In this document: in pieces, positions 10,514 through 63,189 of the stretch
How positions within the stretch are numbered: position 1 is the stretch's first letter
How the letters are laid out: each line of letters begins with the position of its first letter
Source of the DNA: Melghirimyces profundicolus
GTDB taxonomy: Bacteria; Bacillota; Bacilli; Thermoactinomycetales; DSM-45169
NCBI RefSeq assembly: GCF_003054245.1
Contig: NZ_QBKR01000006.1
Coordinates: 62,001 to 126,000, forward strand
Direction of reading: 5' to 3'
Length of the DNA: 64,000 nt
Notes under the pieces: model-generated
What the model saw: only the letters and a program-made list of their open reading frames with translations
The model's database searches: none
What the model was told of the DNA's origin: nothing
Made by a program: the position numbers and the translations under genes

Positions 10514-10888
10514 ATGCCCCAAAAAGTGTGGATGGCTGCCGGGGTGATGGTATTGGTTTTTGCCATCGTGTTGGCAACAGGATCCCGCGCCGAAGAAAAG
10601 TCCTCCGTAACAACGGCGTCCACGACGGAATCCCCACCATTCGAAGAATCGCAAGATCCAGTTGATCAAGAGGGGAGTCAGACCTTCATCGAAAAATAAC
10701 GGTCCATCGCCAAGAAAAACGCTCAATTGGAAATCGAAATCATCAGCTTAAAAAAGCAAATCGATCACATGAAGGATAACGGTGAAGATCCGGTCAAGAT
10801 CCAGGCTATGGAACGTGAGATGAAAAAGCTGGAGAAAAAGATGATCCCCGGACAATGCGACCTGTGGGGAATCACGGAAGAGTATTAG
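10514..10888 (+). pseudogene. Membrane-anchored coiled-coil protein interrupted by an in-frame TAA
   Basis: From ATG at 10514 (GGAGGTG before it) the frame encodes a signal-anchor (MPQKVWMAAGVMVLVFAIVL), a Ser/Thr/Pro/Glu-rich linker, then TFIEK and a TAA at codon 62 (10697-10699). The same frame continues without further interruption for 62 codons as a Lys/Glu-rich coiled coil (RSIAKKNAQLEIEIISLKKQ, then EREMKKLEKKM) and ends with CDLWGITEEY. This reads as one gene of about 123 residues carrying a nonsense mutation, or less likely a read-through product. Its final TAG overlaps the end of a foldback repeat copy, so the original C-terminus may also be lost. Function unknown. Confidence 0.6.
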
Positions 10889-10993
10889 AAGCGTTGTGAA
10901 AAAGTGCCCCAAAGCCACTCCGGCTGCACTCACAGAGCACAAGTCTCGCCTGGGTCGCTTGCGCTCCCCGGTCTCGCTATGCTGTTCTGCAGA
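10885..10993 (+). repeat. Foldback repeat, copy A (left part only)
   Basis: Begins TTAGAAGCGTTGTGAAAAAG, which matches the complemented right end of the full copy at 47698-48007 and so defines the terminal inverted repeat. It continues through the shared block GCACTCACAGAGCACAAGTC and stops after GCTGTTCTGC. It lies at the 3' end of the coiled-coil gene and supplies its TAG stop. Confidence 0.8.
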
Positions 10994-15274: not shown

Positions 15275-15325
15275 GACTGTACAAAAATATATGTCCAATA
15301 AATTGGAGGTATCTTGAATAAGCGG

Positions 15326-15381
15326 GCGGCGGCATTTGCCCGAAGCCGCTCCGGTTGCACTCACAGAGCACAAGTCTCGCC
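15326..15381 (+). repeat. Foldback repeat, copy B (internal fragment)
   Basis: Contains the block from GCGGCGGCATTT through CACAGAGCACAAGTCTCGCC of the repeat; both ends are missing. Just before it, GGAGGT-N3-TTG-AAT-AAG looks like an orphan translation start, possibly of a gene replaced by the repeat. Confidence 0.65.
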
Positions 15382-15424
15382 AGCAAAACGCTGCCATCTT
15401 TCTTCCACCTTATCAGATCAAAAC

Positions 15425-22695: not shown

Positions 22696-22719
22696 GATGC
22701 GCGTCCCGTCCTTTTCCCC

Positions 22720-22769
22720 TGGTAGTATTGTGAAAAAGGGATCGGCGGCATTTACCCGAAGCCGATCCG
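22720..22769 (+). repeat. Foldback repeat, copy C (left end only)
   Basis: AGTATTGTGAAAAAGG through TTTACCCGAAGCCG, then the similarity stops abruptly in glycoside-hydrolase coding sequence. The hydrolase frame runs into it on the other strand. Confidence 0.7.
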
Positions 22770-24781
22770 TGTTCCACGACGAGAATATCGTAAATCGAAA
22801 GCTCCGGTAACTCCGTGATCACTTCCCCATTGGCTTCTTGAAAGGGAAGCGTCCGTTGTAGTGCGGAACTCCAAATTCGTGTGGCCTGAAACCCGGGAAT
22901 TCTCAGCCGGATCGGCAACATTCTTAACGGAAGCACCGAACCGATCGGCCGGGTCATCGAGCCGGTATAGTTAATGAGATGCAACATCCACCGGTTCTTC
23001 TTTTTGCGCAATGAAAGGTGCAGAGATTCCGCTTCCGTCTCAACGATCACCCAATCTTCGCACAATTCCCGGACGGCGTTCGTCATTAAGGTTCGATACT
23101 CCGGCAATGCATAACATTCATAAAATTTCCCGACGTTTCCGGTAAGATAAATCGCCTCTCCCGCTCCGTGTCGATTGCGCAGGATAAAGGGAAAGTCCGT
23201 CGCATCCGGCAGTTCTTCATAGCGGGATTCCTGTTTTCTCCGATACCGCATCACGGTATGAACACCCGGGGAGGGTTTTCCCCTCACACTCAACGAAGGG
23301 GCGGGGATCAAAGATTGATCCATTCCCTTCAATAACGGATCTCCCCATTCCGTCTCCATATGATCAAAGCGGCTGGGCAGAATGCCCACCACTTCTTTCA
23401 ACCCCAGCACGTCCGCCAATAAAGGCTGAGGCCGACGGGTCCCTTCTTCATCATAGAAGGCCGTGTCGAAAGAAGCAATCAGTTTACCTCCCCGGCGAAC
23501 ATACGCCTCCAAATGACCGGCTTCCTCTTCCGACATGCAACTGCTCTCCGGCAAGATGACCAGATCGTACCTTTGAAAGCTTCCATCCCCAATGGATGCC
23601 TCGTCAATGACATCGAACAGGATGCGGCTTCGGGAGAGGGCGTCATACCACCCCATGAAGGATCCCCGGGCATCTCCTTGCTGCCATTCTGTCAAACGGT
23701 CCTCACCCCGGGTGAAATCCGTCTCTTCCGAAGTGGATTGGTAATGGTTCGCCGTTGAATCCGACCAAAGCAATGCCACCCGTGCAGCGGACCGCGTTCC
23801 CGTCAGATCCTCCTCATTTTGTTCCAGAAACTGATTGACGGCTTTCACCGTGTTCATCCGTGCATCGGTATTGTTGTCCTGATAAATGCCGTACCAGGTA
23901 TTGGCTCCGTGAGCGACGGCCATCGCATGTGCAATCCAGGTTTCCGCCCCCGTCAGAAGATAGCGGGACCAAGGAGCCAAACGCCCGGCAATGGCGACAC
24001 AGTATGGTTTCCCCTAGGACTGGGTTTCCAGCAGCTGAGCCGTCGCTGCCGGCTTCCACGCTCCGTCTCAGATCTCCGCTTAAAAACCCGCCTTCCGCCA
24101 ACAGCATATCCTGGTGTTTCACCGTCAGGCGGTTGTCCCGACTGCAGTATTGGGTCGGGGTCAATTGAGGGCTGTTCATGTAAATCATCGTACCGGGACG
24201 CTCCGCCTTCAACCACTGGTTGCAGTCTTTCATAAACCGCGCAATCGATTCTTTTTTAAACCGGAACCAATCCCTGTTCTGATCCGAGTCCCGTTCTCGG
24301 GACACCGGGTAGCCGTATTCCTGTCGAAACGCCGTTTTGCAGGCTTCACAAAAGCAACCGTCCGGCCGGAATAAGGGACCGTCCAGAAAAATGCCCTTGA
24401 TGGGAAAGCGGGCGAGGGTCCGAATGGTTCCAAAGGCGTATTTCCGGAAAGAAGAGTTTACACAGGAATACCCGCCCGCTCCGTATGCACTCGGAAGCAC
24501 TTCTCCCCCTTCCCCCCGTTGCAACCATTGCGGATACCGGCGGCTTAACCCGGGAGATAACCAATGGACGTTGAAATAAACGATCGGGTGGATTCCCGCG
24601 GCATTGTGAGCGCGGCAAATCGGGGTAAGAAGATCGGAACGCGCTTCCACCGCATACTCCGATTGATAGAAAGTAATCCCAGATTCACCCAGACTGATAT
24701 CGTGTACCTCCACGTGTTCCGCATTAAACCAATAAAGTCCACGATTCTCAACAAACATTGCGCCCAAAACGGGGTTTTCAT
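22770..24781 (-). pseudogene. Glycoside hydrolase with beta-galactosidase-type trimerisation domain, multiply disrupted
   Basis: Combined frames describe a protein of about 660 residues. The first part is a TIM-barrel-like domain (GIFLDGPLFRPDGCFCEAC). The second is a GATase-like trimerisation domain as in family 42 (YDLVILPESSCMSEEEAGHL, then YVRRGGKLIASF). I see three lesions. After the ATG at 24781 (AAGGAGGTGT upstream) one C is missing near 24772. A frameshift lies near 24050. In the corrected frame a TAG sits near 24016 (ETQS-stop-GKPYCVAIAG). The 3' end runs into repeat copy C, and copy E lies just upstream of the start. It sits in the amino-sugar operon and is probably inactive. Confidence 0.72.
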
Positions 24782-24815
24782 CCCCACACCTCCTTCTGTT
24801 TACGGAAACCCCAGA

Positions 24816-25006
24816 AGTATTGTGAAAAAGTGAGCGGCGGCATTTACCCGAAGCCGCTCCGGCTGCACTCACAGAGCACAAGTCTCGCCTGGGTCGCTTC
24901 TCTCCCCGGTCTCGCTATGCTGTCCTGCAGGGATGCAGGCACTGTCCGCTCCGAATCTTCCTGCTGCGGGCAGGGGCAAACGCCTGCGGATGCAACACAG
25001 AGAAGC
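24816..25006 (+). repeat. Foldback repeat, copy E (left two thirds)
   Basis: AGTATTGTGAAAAAGTGAGC through GGATGCAACACAGAGAAGC. It lies between the stop of the SIS gene and the start of the disrupted glycoside hydrolase, inside what was one operon. The right arm with its terminal repeat is missing. Confidence 0.85.
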
Positions 25007-31467: not shown

Positions 31468-31647
31468 CCGCCGCTCCGGGTGCACTCACCGAGCACAAGT
31501 CTCGCCTGGGTCGCTTTGCTCCCGGTCGCGCTATGCTGTCCTGCAGAGATGGTTGCACCGCTCCGCTGGACAGGACAGCAAAGTCGCTATTTTGGGTAAA
31601 CGCTTCCCCTTTTCTCGAAACGAACATGAAATCACAACGCTTTAGAG
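31468..31647 (+). repeat. Foldback repeat, copy F (left terminal region and centre missing)
   Basis: Shares the GCACTC...GAGCACAAGTCTCGCC block, then jumps from GATGGTTGCAC to the right arm GGACAGCAAAGTCGCTATTT, so the apex is deleted. It ends with CACAACGCTTTAGAG, the complemented terminal repeat. It replaces the upstream part of uxaC. Confidence 0.8.
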
Positions 31648-45879: not shown

Positions 45880-47436
45880 TCACTGTTTCACAGTGTCGCG
45901 GAAACTTGTCTCACTCTGTTTCATCCACCGGTACAATGTGCTCCGGGATACCCCCAACAACCGGGCGGCCTTCGAAATGTTACCCGAGGATTCCTTTAAA
46001 GCTCTTTTCACCGCCTGGGTCCGGCTCCGTTCGGTTTCCACCGTTTTTCTCAGCTCTCCCTTGGAAAGGATCCGCCGGACCTCCTCCTCTTGGATCGTTT
46101 CATGTTTGCTGAACAGGCTGCTGGACAGCAACACGTTTTTCAACTCCCGGATATTACCGGGCCAACCGTATCGTTGAAGCACTCGAAAAGCCGCCGTCGA
46201 AAGCGGACGGGGAAGGTCCAGCTCCTTCGACAGATGGTCCACCAGTGCCGGCAGATCTTCCAAACGCTCCCGCAAAGGCGGCAGCTCAATCGGAAGCACA
46301 TACAGCCGATAGAACAGATCTTCGCGAAATTTCCCTTCCCGGATCCGTTCGGGCAAGCTCCGATGGGTCGCCGTGATCACACGGGCATCAATATGAATTT
46401 CCCGACTGCTCCCGAGAGGGCGGATCGTCTTTTCCTGAAGGAACCGGAGAAGAGCCACCTGCATTCTTTCGTTCATCTCGCCGACTTCATCCAAAAACAC
46501 GGTGCCGCGGTGGGCCAGACGCAGTTTCCCCGGGTTTCCTTTGGGTTGCGCCCCGGTAAAAGCACCCGGGGCATATCCAAACAGTTCGCTCTCCAGCAAC
46601 TGGGGGGATAGAGCCCCGCAATTCAGTGCCACGAAAGGCTCCCGGGCCCGGGTGCTCCGGTCATGGATATAGCGGGCCAAAAGCTCTTTCCCCGTCCCGC
46701 TCTCTCCTGTCAGACATACAGGATGATCGACGAGGGCAGCCTGTTCCGCCATTTCAATCGTCTGCTGGAAGGCGCGGCTGTTCCCGATCACTCCCTGAAA
46801 ACCGGCCACCGTGCCGGGTTCGATTCTCTGGATGCGCTCCTCCAGCGACATAGCCATGGTGGATACGATCGTCAACAAATAGGGATGGGCCTGTTCCAGC
46901 GGGCCGGAGACATTGAGCACACACAGCACGTTGCCCGTTTTGGTTCTGACTGGTGCAGCGGCACAGCACCAGGGGTGGGTAGCAACCGTATAATGCTGAT
47001 ATCCCTCCACATAAACAGGCTGCCGGGTCTCCAGAGCCGTCCCGATCGCATTGGTTCCCACATCTCTCTCAGACCACCGCGCCCCCGGTACAAAACGGAT
47101 CTTTTCGGCAGCTGCCTTTGTTGCGGGGTGACCATCCCCGGCCAAAAGGTGACCTTCTTCATCGGTCAACAAAACAATCATCCGATGTTGATGCAAAAGT
47201 TGTTGCAACTGTTTCACATATTTTTCGGCTTCCTCCCACATCCAGGACAAATGTTCCCTTCTCTCAAACAGCTCTCCTTTGGTCAGAAGCACATTCCCCC
47301 GGTCCCGGTGGGGATCGATGGCATATTCTTTACTGCGGATCCACGATTCCCGGATAACCTTCTCGATCCGGTTTTCGTCCAGGGTCCCTTCCCTGACAAA
47401 ACGCTTCCATATGTTCATGGGCAAGGAAATCGTCAC
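45880..47436 (-). CDS. acoR: AcoR-like sigma-54-dependent activator with GAF domain
   Basis: A 518-residue enhancer-binding protein. The N-terminus carries the AcoR/DhaR pattern (VIRESWIRSKEYAIDP) and a GAF domain with ERDVGTNAIGTALET. The AAA+ core has GESGTGKE, GAFTGA and RVITATHRSLPERI. A C-terminal Fis-type helix-turn-helix follows (SGNISKAARLLGVSRSTLYR). I choose the GTG start behind GGAGGGGAGG; the longer in-frame extension upstream has no ribosome binding site. A palindrome CACTGTTTCACAGTG at its 3' end (45881-45895) is a candidate binding site for the adjacent promoter. Confidence 0.9.
   Translation of the reverse strand: MTISLPMNIWKRFVREGTLDENRIEKVIRESWIRSKEYAIDPHRDRGNVLLTKGELFERREHLSWMWEEAEKYVKQLQQLLHQHRMIVLLTDEEGHLLAGDGHPATKAAAEKIRFVPGARWSERDVGTNAIGTALETRQPVYVEGYQHYTVATHPWCCAAAPVRTKTGNVLCVLNVSGPLEQAHPYLLTIVSTMAMSLEERIQRIEPGTVAGFQGVIGNSRAFQQTIEMAEQAALVDHPVCLTGESGTGKELLARYIHDRSTRAREPFVALNCGALSPQLLESELFGYAPGAFTGAQPKGNPGKLRLAHRGTVFLDEVGEMNERMQVALLRFLQEKTIRPLGSSREIHIDARVITATHRSLPERIREGKFREDLFYRLYVLPIELPPLRERLEDLPALVDHLSKELDLPRPLSTAAFRVLQRYGWPGNIRELKNVLLSSSLFSKHETIQEEEVRRILSKGELRKTVETERSRTQAVKRALKESSGNISKAARLLGVSRSTLYRWMKQSETSFRDTVKQ
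45881..45895. promoter_or_regulatory. Candidate upstream activating sequence for acoABC
   Basis: CACTGTTTCACAGTG, a five-base inverted repeat with five-base centre, some 30 bases upstream of the -24 element. A second CTGTTTCA lies near 45917. It overlaps the end of the activator gene. Confidence 0.4.
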
Positions 47437-47697
47437 GAATGGACCTCCCCTCCATATTTTTTGGCAATTTCGATTTTTATTCCTGAAAAATCTTTGTTCC
47501 GTGATGATAAAAGGTTTGGTTTTTTTCATGGGGTTTTTCACCATCGAAAACCAGGTGCTTGCCTTTTTTCCATGCACTTTCACACAAACAAAAGACGATC
47601 CCTTATTTACCCAAGAATTATCCTGGAGCCAAGATTGGAGAGGTCAACAAGCAAAGACTCATTCCTTCTTAATGGTAAGAAAAAAATAAAAAAACCC

Positions 47698-48007
47698 TTA
47701 GTATTGTGAAAAAGTGAACGGCGGCATTTACCCGAAGCCGCTCCGGCTGCACTCACAGAGCACAAGTCTCGCCTGGGGTCGCTTCACTCCCCGGTCTCGC
47801 TATGCTGTCCTGCAGAGATGGTTGCACTGTCCGCTCCGAATCATCCTGCTGCGGGCAGGGGCAAAACGCCTTCGGATGCAACACAGGGAAGCTTTTGCCC
47901 CTGAACGCCCTTGCAAGCTGATTCTCCGCTGGGCAGGACAGCAAAGTCGCTATTTCGGGTAAACGCTTCCCTTCTTCTGAGCCTAACCATAAATACAACG
48001 CTTCTAA
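47698..48007 (+). mobile_element. Full-length foldback repeat, copy G (MITE-like, about 310 bp)
   Basis: The most complete copy. Its ends are inverted: TTAGTATTGTG at the left, ACAACGCTTCTAA at the right. Nested inside are three more inverted pairs: TTTACCCGAA (47727) with TTCGGGTAAA (47954), GCTGTCCTGC (47804) with GCAGGACAGC (47933), and TCCGAA (47835) with TTCGGA (47871). At the apex is CCTGC-TGCGG-GCAGG (47845-47859). AGGGGCAAAA (47858) could pair instead with TTTTGCCCCT (47893). No open reading frame with a known protein is present, so it would be non-autonomous. It lies between acoR and an NCS1 permease gene. Confidence 0.8.
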
Positions 48008-48080: not shown

Positions 48081-49427
48081 CTATCCGGCCGAAACATGAT
48101 CTCTGGACTTCTCTGGATGAATCCAATGTCGGGGTGTAAATGCGTCAGGCTGTAGACGGGCTTTTAGTCGCATTCCACAGTAGTAAGCCAACCCGGTAAC
48201 CAGAAGGGACAACACGCTGGGGATGCCAAATGGCTTAACATATTGTGTGTAATAGCCCACTATCGTCCCCAATATCAAAGCGAGAGAGGCCACTCCGTTC
48301 CATCCCTTCAAGTCCACCCAGTCCTGTCGGCGAAGCCAGAAGAAATCGACGAACATGACACCTGCTATCGCCGGATACACCAACGCCGTCATATATAAGA
48401 AATCCATAAAGTAATTTAAAAAACCGGCCAACGCCACGAGGATGGCGGCAATGGTTCCCCCGAATGTGAGCCAGGCACGCCCCTTACCGGAGTTCACATT
48501 GAAAAGATTGGACAGAGCCAGTCCCATGCTGTAGTTATTGACCAGCTGACTGGTCCAGGTCGCCAGCCACAGGATCAAAAAGCCCCAGAAGGAAAAACCC
48601 AATTGCTGCATCACTTTCACGATATCCGCATCCCCCACACCCACGGACATCATGGCACCCACCCAGAACAGCGGAAGGCCCACCCCTACGATTCCAATGG
48701 GAATGAGTAACTGATCCTTGATTTTCGGGCGACTGTAACGGGTGTAATCCGATGCAATCACCCATTGTGAAACATTGACACCAATGATCAGACTGATGGC
48801 TGCCAACCACGTCATCTTCGGTTCCGGTGACCAGGTGACAATCTTTTCCCATCCTGTGTTCTGCAAAGCAAAAATGATCCCGCTGATAATCAAGACAAGC
48901 CCGGCGGGCACCGCCAGATAATCCGTCCACTTCATGGTGGAATAACCGATAATGGACGGCAGCGCAAAAAGCAACCCGGTGATGACTGTAATTACCGCCC
49001 ATGCAACCCACTGCTTTTCATAATCAATGCCGATCATGACTGAGATCGCATTGGCTGCAACCGCCGTTTGAACCGCCCACCACCCCATGGAAATCAGAAA
49101 GATGGTCAACCCGATAATCCACCGTGCCTGTGTCGCACCAAATCCGGAACGTGCGATCACGGAGGAGGACCGACCGGACTTGGCCCCCATATAACCTTGA
49201 ATGCTGTTTCCCACCCATTGCACCATCAAAGCCACGGCCAGCAATCCCAAAATTTGTATCATTCCGAAACTGCCCGCCAATGTGGCTCCCACCATCAGAA
49301 CGGGAATGGTAAATTCCAATCCGCCAAAAATGATAGCCGGCGTCACCCAGGATTGCCGTTGGGACTCTGTTACTTCAGCCAGGGCCTCATCGTTCCGGAC
49401 TGCCTGTCCCAGGTTTTGTTTTTCCAT
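48081..49427 (-). CDS. NCS1-family nucleobase/hydantoin permease (CodB-like)
   Basis: A 448-residue, 12-helix transporter. It has the N-terminal amphipathic segment, then VTPAIIFGGLEFTIPVLMVG in helix 1, GAKSGRSSSVIARSGFGATQ in the loop after helix 2, and NVSQWVIASDYTRYSRPK around helix 6. Family members take up cytosine, purines, allantoin or hydantoins. It follows the HyuB gene by 60 bases on the same strand, so hydantoin-like or lactam substrates are plausible. Confidence 0.9.
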   Translation of the reverse strand: MEKQNLGQAVRNDEALAEVTESQRQSWVTPAIIFGGLEFTIPVLMVGATLAGSFGMIQILGLLAVALMVQWVGNSIQGYMGAKSGRSSSVIARSGFGATQARWIIGLTIFLISMGWWAVQTAVAANAISVMIGIDYEKQWVAWAVITVITGLLFALPSIIGYSTMKWTDYLAVPAGLVLIISGIIFALQNTGWEKIVTWSPEPKMTWLAAISLIIGVNVSQWVIASDYTRYSRPKIKDQLLIPIGIVGVGLPLFWVGAMMSVGVGDADIVKVMQQLGFSFWGFLILWLATWTSQLVNNYSMGLALSNLFNVNSGKGRAWLTFGGTIAAILVALAGFLNYFMDFLYMTALVYPAIAGVMFVDFFWLRRQDWVDLKGWNGVASLALILGTIVGYYTQYVKPFGIPSVLSLLVTGLAYYCGMRLKARLQPDAFTPRHWIHPEKSRDHVSAG

Positions 49428-49487: not shown

Positions 49488-51233
49488 TCACTTCTGTCGT
49501 TTTTCGCGCTCCGGGGTAAACCCGATGATGTCATAATGAACGGGATCGACCCGAACACCATAGTCTGCCTCGGCCTGTTCCACTGTGATCCAACCATTGC
49601 GGACATCCTGGGCTACTTTTTCGGGATCGCGTTGGAACGGATCCCCATACCCCCCTCCGGTGGCGGTGATCAGCCGAACCACATCCCCCTTGTTTAATGG
49701 ATGGCGGGCATATTTACCGAAGGGACCTTCCACCGTTCCATCCGTTTTCACGATTTCGAACCCGTTTTCCGAACCCTCTTTGCCGCCATGGGCTCCCCAG
49801 GGAAGGTATTTATGTCGGCCGAAGGTTCCGGTGAATGTCTGCCCGTCGGTCAGTGCTCGGTAGGAACGAATGACACCTGATCCGCCCCGATACTCCCCGG
49901 CTCCCGCTCCATCGGCACGGAAACTGTATTCGTCCACCATCACGCCGTAACGGGTTTCCGCCACTTCCACCGGGACATTATAGGTCTCTCCGTCCCCGAT
50001 ACAGAACTGCCCGTTTTCTCCGTCTTTTCCTTGTGCCGCTCCCCAGCCGCCCACCAGGGGCTCAACAATCAGGAAGGGTTCGTCAGTGTCCGGATGCTGA
50101 CCCGCCAATACCACTCCGCAGACAGACAACAGATGCCCGGCGGTTAAACGGTGCGGAACTACCGGGGCCAGCGCTTTCCAGATGAGATCACAACCATACA
50201 GCATGGTTTCCCAATAGGTCGAGACGGCAGCGGGGCGTTCGGCGCTGAAGATCGAACGGGGGTCGGTGATCACCTTCAGAGGACGGAATACCCCGTCATT
50301 GACATCCTGCGAGGGGTTGGTCACTGCCAGGAAGATGGCACGGACAGCCGATAACAGCCCGGTATAGGAACAATTAACCGGCCCCAGGACTTGCGGATGG
50401 CTCCCCCTGAAATCGCAAATAAACTCCTCATCGGTGATGGTCACTTTGACCTGAACCTTGAAAGGACCGCTTCCCAATCCGTCGTCATCGATGTAGTCCA
50501 CCGCGTCAAACGTACCCTTGGGCAGCTGCCGTAACTGTTGTCGGGAGATCTCTTCCCCATGATTTAACAAATGCTCAATGGAAGCTTTGACGACATCGAT
50601 CCCATACTGCTCACACAACTCAGTAAACCGTCTTTCTCCCGTTTTCAGTGCGGCCACCTGCGCCCACATATCTCCCAATGAACTTTCCGGAAAACGAACG
50701 TTGACACGGATGAGATCCACCAAGGCCTGATTGAGAACACCGGCTTCATACAGCTTCACACAGGGAAATTGCAACCCTTCCTGGTAGATCTCGGTCGAAT
50801 CCGTCGTCCAGGAACCCGGATCCTTCCCTCCCACTTCGGTCCAGTGGGCTTTATTCACCGAAAAGGCCACCAGTTCCCCTTGATAAAAGATCGGCATCAG
50901 GAGCCCGACATCGGAAAGGTGGGAACCCCCTCCCCCATAGGGATCATTCATGATCAGGATATCCCCCGGCTCCAATTGATCCGGCCCGAACTTGTCCAGC
51001 GCATCCTTCACCATCGATGACAGCATCCCGATAAACCCGGTAACGCCATTTCCCTGGGTCAACAGCTGACCTTTTGCGTCGGTGAGGCCGCTGGCATAGT
51101 CGAGCACCTCATAAATAATGGGGCTCATCGATGTACGGGCCAAGGCGTAAAACATTTCATCTCCAATGGCCAACAGCGAATCTTTCACAATTTCAAGCGT
51201 AAACGGGTTAACGGAGATACGGGTTTTATTCAT
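49488..51233 (-). CDS. hyuB: Hydantoinase B/oxoprolinase-family subunit
   Basis: A 581-residue subunit. The family start is visible (NPFTLEIVKDSLLAIGDEMF), then DYASGLTDAKGQLLTQGNG, ILIMNDPYGGGGSHLSDV with metal-type residues, DFRGSHPQVLGPVNCSYTG and PGGWGAAQGKDGENG-like segments. With HyuA it forms an ATP-dependent ring-opening amidohydrolase for N-methylhydantoin, 5-oxoproline or caprolactam-type substrates. The ATG lies behind GGGAGTGTGAGA, five bases after the HyuA stop. Confidence 0.93.
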   Translation of the reverse strand: MNKTRISVNPFTLEIVKDSLLAIGDEMFYALARTSMSPIIYEVLDYASGLTDAKGQLLTQGNGVTGFIGMLSSMVKDALDKFGPDQLEPGDILIMNDPYGGGGSHLSDVGLLMPIFYQGELVAFSVNKAHWTEVGGKDPGSWTTDSTEIYQEGLQFPCVKLYEAGVLNQALVDLIRVNVRFPESSLGDMWAQVAALKTGERRFTELCEQYGIDVVKASIEHLLNHGEEISRQQLRQLPKGTFDAVDYIDDDGLGSGPFKVQVKVTITDEEFICDFRGSHPQVLGPVNCSYTGLLSAVRAIFLAVTNPSQDVNDGVFRPLKVITDPRSIFSAERPAAVSTYWETMLYGCDLIWKALAPVVPHRLTAGHLLSVCGVVLAGQHPDTDEPFLIVEPLVGGWGAAQGKDGENGQFCIGDGETYNVPVEVAETRYGVMVDEYSFRADGAGAGEYRGGSGVIRSYRALTDGQTFTGTFGRHKYLPWGAHGGKEGSENGFEIVKTDGTVEGPFGKYARHPLNKGDVVRLITATGGGYGDPFQRDPEKVAQDVRNGWITVEQAEADYGVRVDPVHYDIIGFTPEREKRQK

Positions 51234-51238
51234 GATTC

Positions 51239-53287
51239 TCACACTCCCGTTTCAATAATGAGGTTACCAAACGCATCCACAGTCAGCTTTTGTTCGGGAT
51301 AAAGGACACAAGTTGCTGTCTTTTCTTCAATGATGGCTGGACCTACCACTTCCATCTCCGGCTCCATCTGAATCCGATCATAAACGGGGACCTCCAGCCA
51401 GCCTTCTTCTTCATACAACACCTGTCTTTTTTCCTTTAAGGCTTCTTCCACGTCCACGTCTTTTCCGGTCCTTTCCAAAGGAGGAAGAGCCGGTTTCCGG
51501 ACCTTGCCAAAGGCTGTGAGGTGCATGTTGACGATTTCCGTTTCCGCTTCTTCCAAACGGAAGGTATAGTGTTGTTCATGGGCTTCGTGAAACCGACGGA
51601 TGATCTCCTGAAGATGGTCAGCAGTCAGACGCCCTTCGGGAATCGGAACCTTAACCGTATGCTCCTGCCCCAGATACCGCATATCGAGGAAACGTTCAAA
51701 ATGAACCCGATCCTCGGCAATCCCTTCGGTTTCAAATTGCTCGACCGCCTGCTGTTCCATTTGGTTCCAATCCTCGTTAAAAGAGGTCAAATCCAATTGA
51801 TTAAGGCGGTGAATGTAGGTCTGAATATAGTCGTGACGAAGATCCGACATCAACATCCCCCATGCGGCAAACACTGATGAAGCAACCGGGACAATCACTT
51901 TTTTCACACCCAGGGCTTTCGCCAGTGCCGTCGCATGGAGAGGACCGCCGCCACCAAAAGCAACCAGCGCGAATTTCCGGGGATCGTACCCTTTCCGCAC
52001 GGAGATCAGCTTCAACGCGTTCAGCATGTTGGAATTCGCGATTCGGAGAATACCCAAAGCCGCATCCTCTGCCGTCATCGAAAACGGACGTCCGATTTTT
52101 TCTTCCAAGATGGTTTTGACGGCTTCCATGTTAACGGGGTAATCAAAATTTTCCGGGGACAGGCGTCCCGTCACCAGGTTGGCATCCGTGGTTGTCGGCT
52201 CCGTCCCCCCTTGTCCATAAGCGATGGGACCCGGAACGGCACCGGCAGATTTCGGCCCCACCTTTAACGATCCGGCCTCATCCAGCCAGGCAATGGAACC
52301 GCCTCCATTTCCAATCTCCACAATATCGACAACGGGGGTTTTAATCGGATATCCGGCCGAGCGATCGGTCCGCTCAATGTGATAATCGGTGGTGATCCTT
52401 ACTTCCCCCTCGTCGATCAGGGAGCATTTGGCCGTCGTTCCCCCAACATCAAACGCGATCAGGTTTTTCTCCCCGATGAGTTCTCCCAAAATCGCCGTCC
52501 CGTACACCCCCGCAACCGGACCGGACTCCACCATGTGGATCGGAGTTTTTTTGGATTGCGTAAACGTGGTAGTCCCCCCGTTGGATTGCATGATGTAGGT
52601 CTGAGCGTCAGCTCCCGCTTCCTCCAACCCCTTTTCCAGCTGGTTAATATAACGGGCAGCCACCGGCTTTACATACGCATTCAGTACAGCCGTGTTGGTC
52701 CGTTCATACTCTCGCCATTCCTTTGTGATTTCATGGGAGGCGGTGACTGCGACCTCCGGCCAATACTCCCGGATAAAATGAACAGCCGATTGTTCATGAG
52801 AGGGGTTGGTGTAAGCATGAAGGAAACAAATCGCGACCCCTTCCACCCCCTGCTCCTTGAAATCATCCAGATGTCTCTTCAATTGATCCAAATCCAGGGG
52901 CGTCAGGACTTCCCCCTTATAGTTCAGGCGTTCATCCACTTCACGCCGAAGGTAACGCGGAACAAACGGAGCCGGCTTTTGATATCGCACGTTAAACAGG
53001 TCCGGACGATTCCCCCGGGCAATCTCCAGAACATCCCGAAAGCCCCGGGTCGTAATCAGACCGGTCTTAACCCCGGTCCGCTCGGTTAAAGCATTGATGA
53101 CCACGGTTGTTCCGTGAATAAATACGTCCATTTCTTCAACCGGACGTTCCAGACCGTTCAGAAGGTTTAAAACACCTTTTTCAAAATGGGGAGGGGTCGT
53201 ATCTCCTTTGGCAATGGTGGTACGCCCCTTTTCATCCACCAGCACAAGATCCGTAAAGGTTCCACCGATATCTGTTGCTACACGCAT
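51239..53287 (-). CDS. hyuA: Hydantoinase A/oxoprolinase-family ATPase subunit
   Basis: A 682-residue acetate/sugar-kinase-like ATPase subunit. The phosphate-1 loop is TDIGGTFTDLVLVDEKG, followed by IHGTTVVINALTERTG, the phosphate-2 motif FDVGGTTAKCSLID, GNGGGSIAWLD and the adenosine motif VAFGGGGPLHATALAKALG. It pairs with HyuB downstream. Both follow an XRE-cupin regulator gene. The substrate is not determined; no carbamoylase or D-hydantoinase gene is present here. Confidence 0.94.
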   Translation of the reverse strand: MRVATDIGGTFTDLVLVDEKGRTTIAKGDTTPPHFEKGVLNLLNGLERPVEEMDVFIHGTTVVINALTERTGVKTGLITTRGFRDVLEIARGNRPDLFNVRYQKPAPFVPRYLRREVDERLNYKGEVLTPLDLDQLKRHLDDFKEQGVEGVAICFLHAYTNPSHEQSAVHFIREYWPEVAVTASHEITKEWREYERTNTAVLNAYVKPVAARYINQLEKGLEEAGADAQTYIMQSNGGTTTFTQSKKTPIHMVESGPVAGVYGTAILGELIGEKNLIAFDVGGTTAKCSLIDEGEVRITTDYHIERTDRSAGYPIKTPVVDIVEIGNGGGSIAWLDEAGSLKVGPKSAGAVPGPIAYGQGGTEPTTTDANLVTGRLSPENFDYPVNMEAVKTILEEKIGRPFSMTAEDAALGILRIANSNMLNALKLISVRKGYDPRKFALVAFGGGGPLHATALAKALGVKKVIVPVASSVFAAWGMLMSDLRHDYIQTYIHRLNQLDLTSFNEDWNQMEQQAVEQFETEGIAEDRVHFERFLDMRYLGQEHTVKVPIPEGRLTADHLQEIIRRFHEAHEQHYTFRLEEAETEIVNMHLTAFGKVRKPALPPLERTGKDVDVEEALKEKRQVLYEEEGWLEVPVYDRIQMEPEMEVVGPAIIEEKTATCVLYPEQKLTVDAFGNLIIETGV

Positions 53288-58304: not shown

Positions 58305-58526
58305 ATGGCTGAGAGCATCCAGGCATTGGGCACCGGCTCGTGCGTCCTGGTGACGGATTACGGGCAGGCGCATAATCTACCCCCGGTGCAGGCGTTGGGA
58401 GAGTTCATACAGCAGATGATAGACAACGGTATCCAGAAGAATGAAATCGAACGAATGGTCTCGATTAATCCGAGAGATGCTCGACATCTCTTGATGAAAC
58501 GGAAGGTAGTACTAAAAGGATGGTGA
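58305..58526 (+). pseudogene. C-terminal fragment of a DUF6282/amidohydrolase-like protein
   Basis: The frame reads AESIQALGTGSCVLVTDYGQ, then ALGEFIQQMIDNGIQKNEIE and a NPRDAR-type ending, resembling the C-terminal end of PHP/amidohydrolase-like proteins. There is no ribosome binding site and the N-terminal two thirds are absent. The TGA stop lies inside repeat copy H, so the repeat defines the present 3' end. Confidence 0.45.
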
Positions 58527-58729
58527 AAAAGTGAGCGGCAGCATTTCCCCGAAGCCGCTCCGGATGCACTCACAGAGCACAAGTCTCGCCTTGGGGTCGC
58601 TTACTCCCCGGTCTCGCTATGCACTCACAGAGCACAAGTCTCGCCTGGGGGTCGCTTACTCCCCGGTCTCGCTATGCTGTCCTGCAGGGATGGTTGCACG
58701 GTCCGCTCCGAATCTTCCTGCGGCGGGGC
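58521..58729 (+). repeat. Foldback repeat, copy H, with an internal 55-bp tandem duplication
   Basis: Begins GGTGAAAAAGTGAGCGGC and carries the GCACTCACAGAGCACAAGTC block twice. Units 58564-58618 and 58619-58673 differ at few positions. The right arm is missing after CCTGCGGCGGGG. It lies against a truncated gene. Confidence 0.8.
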
Positions 58730-58739
58730 TGATGGCCGT

Positions 58740-59000
58740 CTGACGATGATAGATGGTGCTTTTGCTCAGTCCTCGGGACTTTGGCTCCATCATAATTTCG
58801 GTGATTTCTTCCTGCCTTAGATGGAGACCGCAAAAAACTTCCCGAAGTGACGGAAGGCGTGTCGATAGGATCCAGGGTATTGCGGTGTTTTCCATGTTCG
58901 GTAAAGCGTTCAATTGGGTCCAATGGGTGATTTTCCTCCTGTTTCTTTCTGATGTAGACTATTATTAAAACAGTAAATGAGAAAAGTATGAAAGCAGCGG
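58740..59000 (-). other. Possible small gene in two frames
   Basis: On the minus strand a TTG behind AGGAGGAAAA opens DPIERFTEHGKHRN. After a frame change near 58870 the sequence LPSLREVFCGLHLRQEEITE and GLSKSTIYHRQTAI looks protein-like. It ends near repeat copy H. I do not recognise a family; it may be another broken gene. Confidence 0.3.
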
Positions 59001-60587: not shown

Positions 60588-61244
60588 TCATTCTTCCCCG
60601 TAAGCCTGAATCATCAGGGCCATGTGTGCCCAGGCCCCGCCGGAGCGCAAATAGGCGGTGACGAGAATGGCTTCCGCCAGTTCGGCATCACTGGCACCAG
60701 CCTTGCGAGCGGCCTTGGAGTGTATATCGATGCAGTAGGGACACTCCGTCGTATGAGCAACGGCGACGGCGATCAGCTCCTTCAGTTTGACGGACAGCTT
60801 CCCTTCAGCGGTAGCGGTCTGAAAAAAGCGCATCATGGCGTCGAAGGGTTCGGGTGCGTGTTGCCTCAGCTTTTTCATGTGCTCCATGCTGGAACGGCGG
60901 TAGAGGGCGTCGTCGGCCGCCTCATCGAGAGCGTTGTGCATGTTGGCACTGTGGGCAAAGGCACCCCCCGCCTCGATGGAGGCGGTCACATAGACGGCTT
61001 CCGCCAACTCCTCCAGGCTGGCTCCTGCTTTTTTAGCCCCCTTGGTGTGAGAATCGATGCAAAAGGGACATTCCGTCGAGTGGGCAACGGCGACGGCGAT
61101 CAGTTCCTTTTCCTTGACGGAGAGGACGCCGTCCTTCATGACCGCTTCAGCGAAACCCTGATGCGCCTTATGTACGTCGGGGACCAGGTCTCCCAGCTTC
61201 TTCAGGTGTCGAATATGGACTTTGTCATACAGGTTGGAACCCAT
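60588..61244 (-). CDS. Carboxymuconolactone decarboxylase-family protein, tandem AhpD-like domains
   Basis: A 218-residue protein made of two AhpD/CMD domains in tandem. The redox motifs are CPFCIDSH in the first and CPYCIDIH in the second, each preceded by KEKELIAVAVAHSTE-like or KLKELIAVAVAHTTE. It is likely a peroxidase-associated disulfide reductase or stress protein. I start at MGSNLYDKV, with AAGGAGG upstream. It lies 150 bases after an acyl-CoA synthetase gene on the same strand. Confidence 0.9.
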   Translation of the reverse strand: MGSNLYDKVHIRHLKKLGDLVPDVHKAHQGFAEAVMKDGVLSVKEKELIAVAVAHSTECPFCIDSHTKGAKKAGASLEELAEAVYVTASIEAGGAFAHSANMHNALDEAADDALYRRSSMEHMKKLRQHAPEPFDAMMRFFQTATAEGKLSVKLKELIAVAVAHTTECPYCIDIHSKAARKAGASDAELAEAILVTAYLRSGGAWAHMALMIQAYGEE

Positions 61245-63122: not shown

Positions 63123-63189
63123 AGTCGTTATTTCGCGGGTAAACGCTTCCCTTCTCTCCTGAGCCTGACAATCAATCACAATACTCTAA
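63123..63189 (+). repeat. Foldback repeat, copy I (right end only)
   Basis: From CAGTCGTTATTTCGCGGGTAAACGC to CACAATACTCTAA, the complement of the left terminus of copy G. The left arm and apex are absent. It lies between the two synthetase genes. Confidence 0.75.

Follow-up and report, generated by a model that had tools for sequence, protein, structure and literature searches.

How a foldback repeat came to be scattered over a 64,000-nucleotide stretch of the Melghirimyces profundicolus genome (hereafter the window), in every case in the same orientation, is the question raised by the sequence at 47698-48007. Our analysis indicates that the repeat very probably belongs to a MITE family moved in trans by a DDE transposase of the IS1182 family. 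Searched with a profile of the family, the window yielded eight copies and no more, each of them on the plus strand, in agreement with the count given in an earlier note on this DNA, and the 310-bp full copy reported there is real (Table 1). Within C1-C8 of the draft assembly (1.6 Mb; 67 contigs in all), the profile identified 131 copies, almost always located in intergenic regions. A first look with the full copy yielded 317 candidates, and genome-wide the core of the internal repeat unit matched 380 times at ≤3 mismatches versus 0 times for a reversed control, suggesting a copy number of roughly 300. Matches to the consensus were found in all 10 genomes searched from the bacterial family, which we take to be Thermoactinomycetaceae; these include a sister species of the same genus (putative Melghirimyces thermohalophilus) and the sister-genus genomes G005 (putative Kroppenstedtia guangzhouensis) and G009 (putative Paludifilum halophilum).

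Table 1. Coordinates of the element, its parts and its copies in the window, and of the sites lacking the element
Feature	Position	Strand	Remark
Left target-site copy	47698..47701	+	TTAG
Left arm	47702..47750	+	Outer foldback arm plus terminal inverted repeat damaged by loss of AAG
Inner minisatellite unit	47751..47805	+	55 bp, single in the full copy
Foldback body B1	47803..47952	+	Nested stems 47803-47813/47933-47943, 47838-47849/47913-47924 and 47851-47866/47893-47908
Right arm	47953..48003	+	With right terminal inverted repeat (..ACAACGCTT)
Right target-site copy	48004..48007	+	CTAA, now differing from the left TTAG
Outer inverted pair	47716-47736/47954-47974
Nested inverted pair	47800-47813/47933-47946		Body
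Nested inverted pair	47838-47849/47913-47924		Body
Nested inverted pair	47851-47866/47893-47908		Body
Competing stem	47885-47900/47957-47972
Profile-called copy starts (approximate)	10884, 15304, 22718, 24811, 31470, 47699, 58512, 63123	+
Partial copy	10884..10993	+	Left arm, unit and beginning of body
Partial copy	15304..15383	+	Left arm and piece of unit
Partial copy	22718..22770	+	Left arm only
Partial copy	24811..25006	+	Left arm, unit and half of body
Copy with internal deletion	31470..31645	+	Unit and right arm
Partial copy	58512..58765	+	Unit present twice in tandem; part of body
Partial copy	63123..63189	+	Right arm only
Site without element, M. profundicolus	C1 near 35460		Compared with sister-species locus L035
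Site without element, M. profundicolus	C5 near 75410		Compared with sister-species locus L033

The consensus order of parts is a 4-bp target copy, AAGCGTTGTGA, the left arm, a variable number of units, the foldback body, the right arm, TCACAACGCTT and the second target copy. Terminal inverted repeats thus enclose about 310 bp devoid of a transposase gene, as in a MITE, and no listed open reading frame of at least 120 amino acids spans the full copy. The nested inverted pairs and the competing inner stem described in the earlier note are all present. The ends, which that note gave as TTAG...GTTGTG, are in fact AAGCGTTGTGA..TCACAACGCTT, flanked by a 4-bp target duplication; TTAG looks like part of the terminal repeat because the left end of the full copy has lost AAG. 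Elsewhere in the window, two adjacent genes on the minus strand (49488-53287) resemble caprolactamase beta and alpha subunit models of the hydantoinase/acetophenone-carboxylase kind, below the cut-off; beside them lie an NCS1-type permease at 48081-49427 and, at 45880-47583, a sigma-54 activator. A 145-bp stretch unrelated to the MITE occurs as two direct copies (60653-60797 and 60980-61124; 74% identical, 327 bp apart).

With the ends placed at AAGCG, a position picked after part of the data had been inspected, the flanking 4 bp were identical in 18 of 50 copies versus 3.2 expected from shuffles (p=2e-4), and the same test showed no comparable enrichment at widths of 2, 3, 5, 6 or 8. The target consensus is C-T-A/G-G (CTAG-like), and an exact duplication has been kept in only 36% of the testable copies. 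An initial choice of GAAGC ends and a 2-bp duplication (22 of 49 versus 12) gave way to the 4-bp reading once the pairs CTAA/CTAA, CTAT/CTAT, CTTG/CTTG and CGAG/CGAG had been seen. Two orthologous intergenic regions carry the element in the sister species and lack it in M. profundicolus; the element at L033 has another end type, and just one of these comparisons therefore concerns AAGCGTTGTGA-type ends. A further sister-species element (L031) was discarded as an unclean comparison, with other DNA at that place in M. profundicolus. High copy number combined with element-free orthologous sites is the pattern of a MITE.

Two decayed IS1182-family insertion sequences with a AAGCGTTGTGA-type end were found in sister genera, with matches to the transposase models NF033551 (E 3e-43, short of the curated threshold), PF05598 and PF01609. 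In G009, a frameshifted IS1182-family transposase gene lies behind a MITE-type left end, and in G005, the transposase is situated between CTAG plus AAGCGTTGTGAAA and TTTTTCACAATT plus CTAG, in a copy with one in-frame stop and one end 2 bp short. The left end of the IS1182-family element runs on as GTGAAAAAGTCATTCAT, nearly matching the MITEs of G004. The MITE hence shares both ends with the decayed G005 copy and the left end with the decayed G009 copy. Consistent with the 4-bp duplications, ISPse1 of Paracoccus, a member of the IS1182 family, also generates duplications of this length (PMC3281130). At E 1e-60, M. profundicolus itself showed no match. It has two distantly related IS1182 members (34-39% identity), no MITE ends were found at their examined loci, and C1-C8 (1.6 Mb) contained no full insertion sequence between matching ends. 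An intact parent in the same genome is not strictly required of a MITE; the assembly is a draft, and the parent may have been lost. IS1182-type transposition appears to be the best-supported mechanism, and the assignment is strong but indirect, since both parent candidates are damaged and no intact copy with these ends was present among 42 genomes of the order (E 1e-60). The proposal of the earlier note that the repeat could be a MITE is backed by the target duplications, the orthologous sites without the element and the insertion sequence sharing its ends.

The internal unit is 53-55 bp long and is repeated in tandem from 0 to at least 7 times per element. Detected arrays comprised one (25 arrays), two (18), three (5), four (5), five (1), six (3) or seven (1) units, and several contigs terminate inside such arrays. 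Local tandem duplication fits these arrays, because units within one array are more alike (96% identity) than units of different arrays (90%). The boundaries are nearly always an ACYC.. start and a ..CTATGC end, usually following TGC. The unit was found in 9 of the 10 family genomes, and outside the family it left no more than weak traces. A tandem arrangement unlike that of the 54-bp unit was observed at locus L135 of G006, where a B1 element is repeated about 226 bp apart.

Across the family, at least four foldback elements of different construction harbor the unit, and precise unit-free versions exist in four backgrounds from three genera: ends 1 with body B1 in M. profundicolus, ends 3 with B1 and ends 1 with body B2 in G004, and elements with AGGGYSTGTCTG ends in G003. 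In G004, AAGCGTTGTGA-type ends and the unit enclose the different foldback body B2, and B1 is also found between different ends; in G003, the unit lies inside elements whose ends are, for example, TAGGGYSTGTCTG or TAGTGCCCCTTC. This composition shows that ends, unit and body have been exchanged as modules between different MITEs of the family. At G004 loci L121-L126 and G005 locus L134, ends like CAGGCGTGTTGATTA surround B1, and G003 loci L130-L132 and L192-L200 hold further foldback types with TAGGGYSTGTCTG/TAGTGCCCCTTC ends, CTAG-like sites and the unit in the loop. The distribution of the unit would be accounted for if each element type had acquired it once and had then transposed in the ordinary way. 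That the 53-55-bp unit is a very small module in its own right, mobile or exchanged site-specifically and stacking head to tail, is unlikely; if it were, it would rank among the smallest DNA cassettes known to spread independently, carried along in the loops of MITEs.

The conservation of the fold bears on whether the element acts as RNA. Among 19 bodies from six genomes, 80.7% of the cells in the three body helices were paired, versus 35-43% when the sequences were slid, and 30 cells were doubly changed versus 14 in shuffles. Helix 1 exhibited U-A to C-G in 6 sequences and G-C to A-U in 7, and helix 2 exhibited A-U to U-A in 7. The pairing of the body has thus been kept by compensatory changes, although these changes probably reflect few events in related genomes. 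RNAalifold returned only 7 pairs on the 19-sequence alignment, probably due to blurring by degenerate copies, and the explicit structure was counted instead. Pairing that persists from one genus to another, helices 1 and 2 showing compensatory changes, in copies that are nearly all intergenic, might be expected of a transcribed regulator or attenuator that spread by duplication and whose pairing is kept since the RNA works. However, no Rfam match exceeded the gathering score in the 64-kb window, the full copy has no terminator-like site and a promoter-like site at chance level only, and its single-sequence fold (-107 kcal/mol) reached a z of only -2.2. Moreover, G004 has swapped the body for an unrelated foldback with ends and unit unchanged, and the target duplications and element-free sites show transposition. 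The structured RNA envisaged in the earlier note is therefore very improbable, even though the pairing itself is conserved, and DNA hairpins or arm-to-arm correction could account for the pairing equally well.

The earlier note also considered a replication-polarised element. Its strand bias is real, but the single orientation seen in the window does not extend to the genome, where unit cores lie 178 forward and 202 reverse. With the leading strand of M. profundicolus inferred from local GC skew and gene strand only, 96 of 131 copies over 1.6 Mb (73%, not 100%) were lagging-sense (p=9e-8). Gene direction alone is insufficient for this bias because it persists at convergent and divergent sites (29 lagging-sense versus 9). 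In the complete genome of G004 (origin near 0 by rRNA genes; skew vanishing near 1.82 Mb), the sign is opposite, with 61 of 88 unit loci leading-sense (p=4e-4). G003 was weakly leading (55 of 89, p=0.03) in a count that mixes element types. In sampled G004 stretches, B2 bodies with AAGCGTTGTGA-type ends were 34 leading and 19 lagging, and other B2 bodies 21 and 21; the B1 bodies of G004, of which 12 of 26 were leading, were not biased toward either strand. No single fixed geometry at the fork accounts for such a reversal between elements whose arms are nearly alike. Replication-linked orientation is known for bacterial transposons, and single-strand HUH families recapitulate the direction of replication (PMC5371812), so that a hairpin-rich, 73% lagging-sense element could be taken for one of the IS200/IS605 or REPIN/RAYT kind entering the lagging-strand template. 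This is scarcely credible: these elements make no target duplication, whereas ours has terminal inverted repeats with 4-bp duplications, which are not products of the HUH mechanism; the matching ends belong to a DDE-type element, and the G004 bias is reversed. A possibility to be taken seriously, though not the one we would expect, concerns the bias only and is compatible with a MITE: selection rather than insertion, with the hairpin or transcript of one orientation disturbing replication or neighboring transcription. The differing sign in genomes sharing ends but not body and the position of codirectional copies, mostly nearer the 3′ end of the upstream gene (53 of 83), are consistent with selection, whereas the M. 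profundicolus bias argues against it, being present also where neighboring genes converge or diverge and in short copies that lack a body.

Collectively, our data favor a MITE mobilized by an IS1182-family transposase. The enzyme would recognize the AAGCGTTGTGA ends, its identity being suggested by the decayed insertion sequences of sister genera, and insertion would occur at CTAG-like 4-bp targets that are then duplicated, the duplication itself being observed. Unit arrays would grow and shrink in place through tandem duplication or slippage, as the higher identity within arrays suggests, and the foldback body would be held in a pairable state, as its compensatory changes indicate. The observed strand bias may stem from insertion linked to replication or from the two orientations surviving unequally, and ends, unit and body have been swapped between different MITEs of the bacterial family, as their composition shows. 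This supplies a mechanism for about 300 unexplained repeats of one genome and for related repeats in ten family genomes, and provides a clear case of modular MITEs trading ends, bodies and a common minisatellite. Opposite biases in two genera with nearly the same ends make the origin of the bias, by insertion or selection, directly testable.

For the element itself, the earlier statement that no named family matches was borne out by the collections that we searched. Those of phages, plasmids and viruses contained no match, and we found no literature on IS1182-derived MITEs of this design or on Melghirimyces repeats. The mechanism, an IS1182-type MITE, is ordinary; the shared minisatellite module and a strand bias of changing sign are unusual. 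Compared with IS1182-family insertion sequences such as ISPse1, the element has the ends of the decayed G005 copy and 4-bp duplications, but it is a MITE of about 310 bp without transposase and adds a foldback body and a minisatellite. REP/REPIN elements, moved by RAYT, are likewise high-copy dispersed intergenic palindromes, whereas the long inverted ends and 4-bp duplications of the M. profundicolus element fit a DDE transposase. The BrickBuilt and 464/PgRS MITEs of Porphyromonas gingivalis, with units of 23 or 41 nt and similar ends around unrelated repeats (PMC4596501), are also intergenic many-copy MITEs with an internal tandem minisatellite; the Melghirimyces-family case differs in that one repeat unit resides inside MITEs with unrelated ends.
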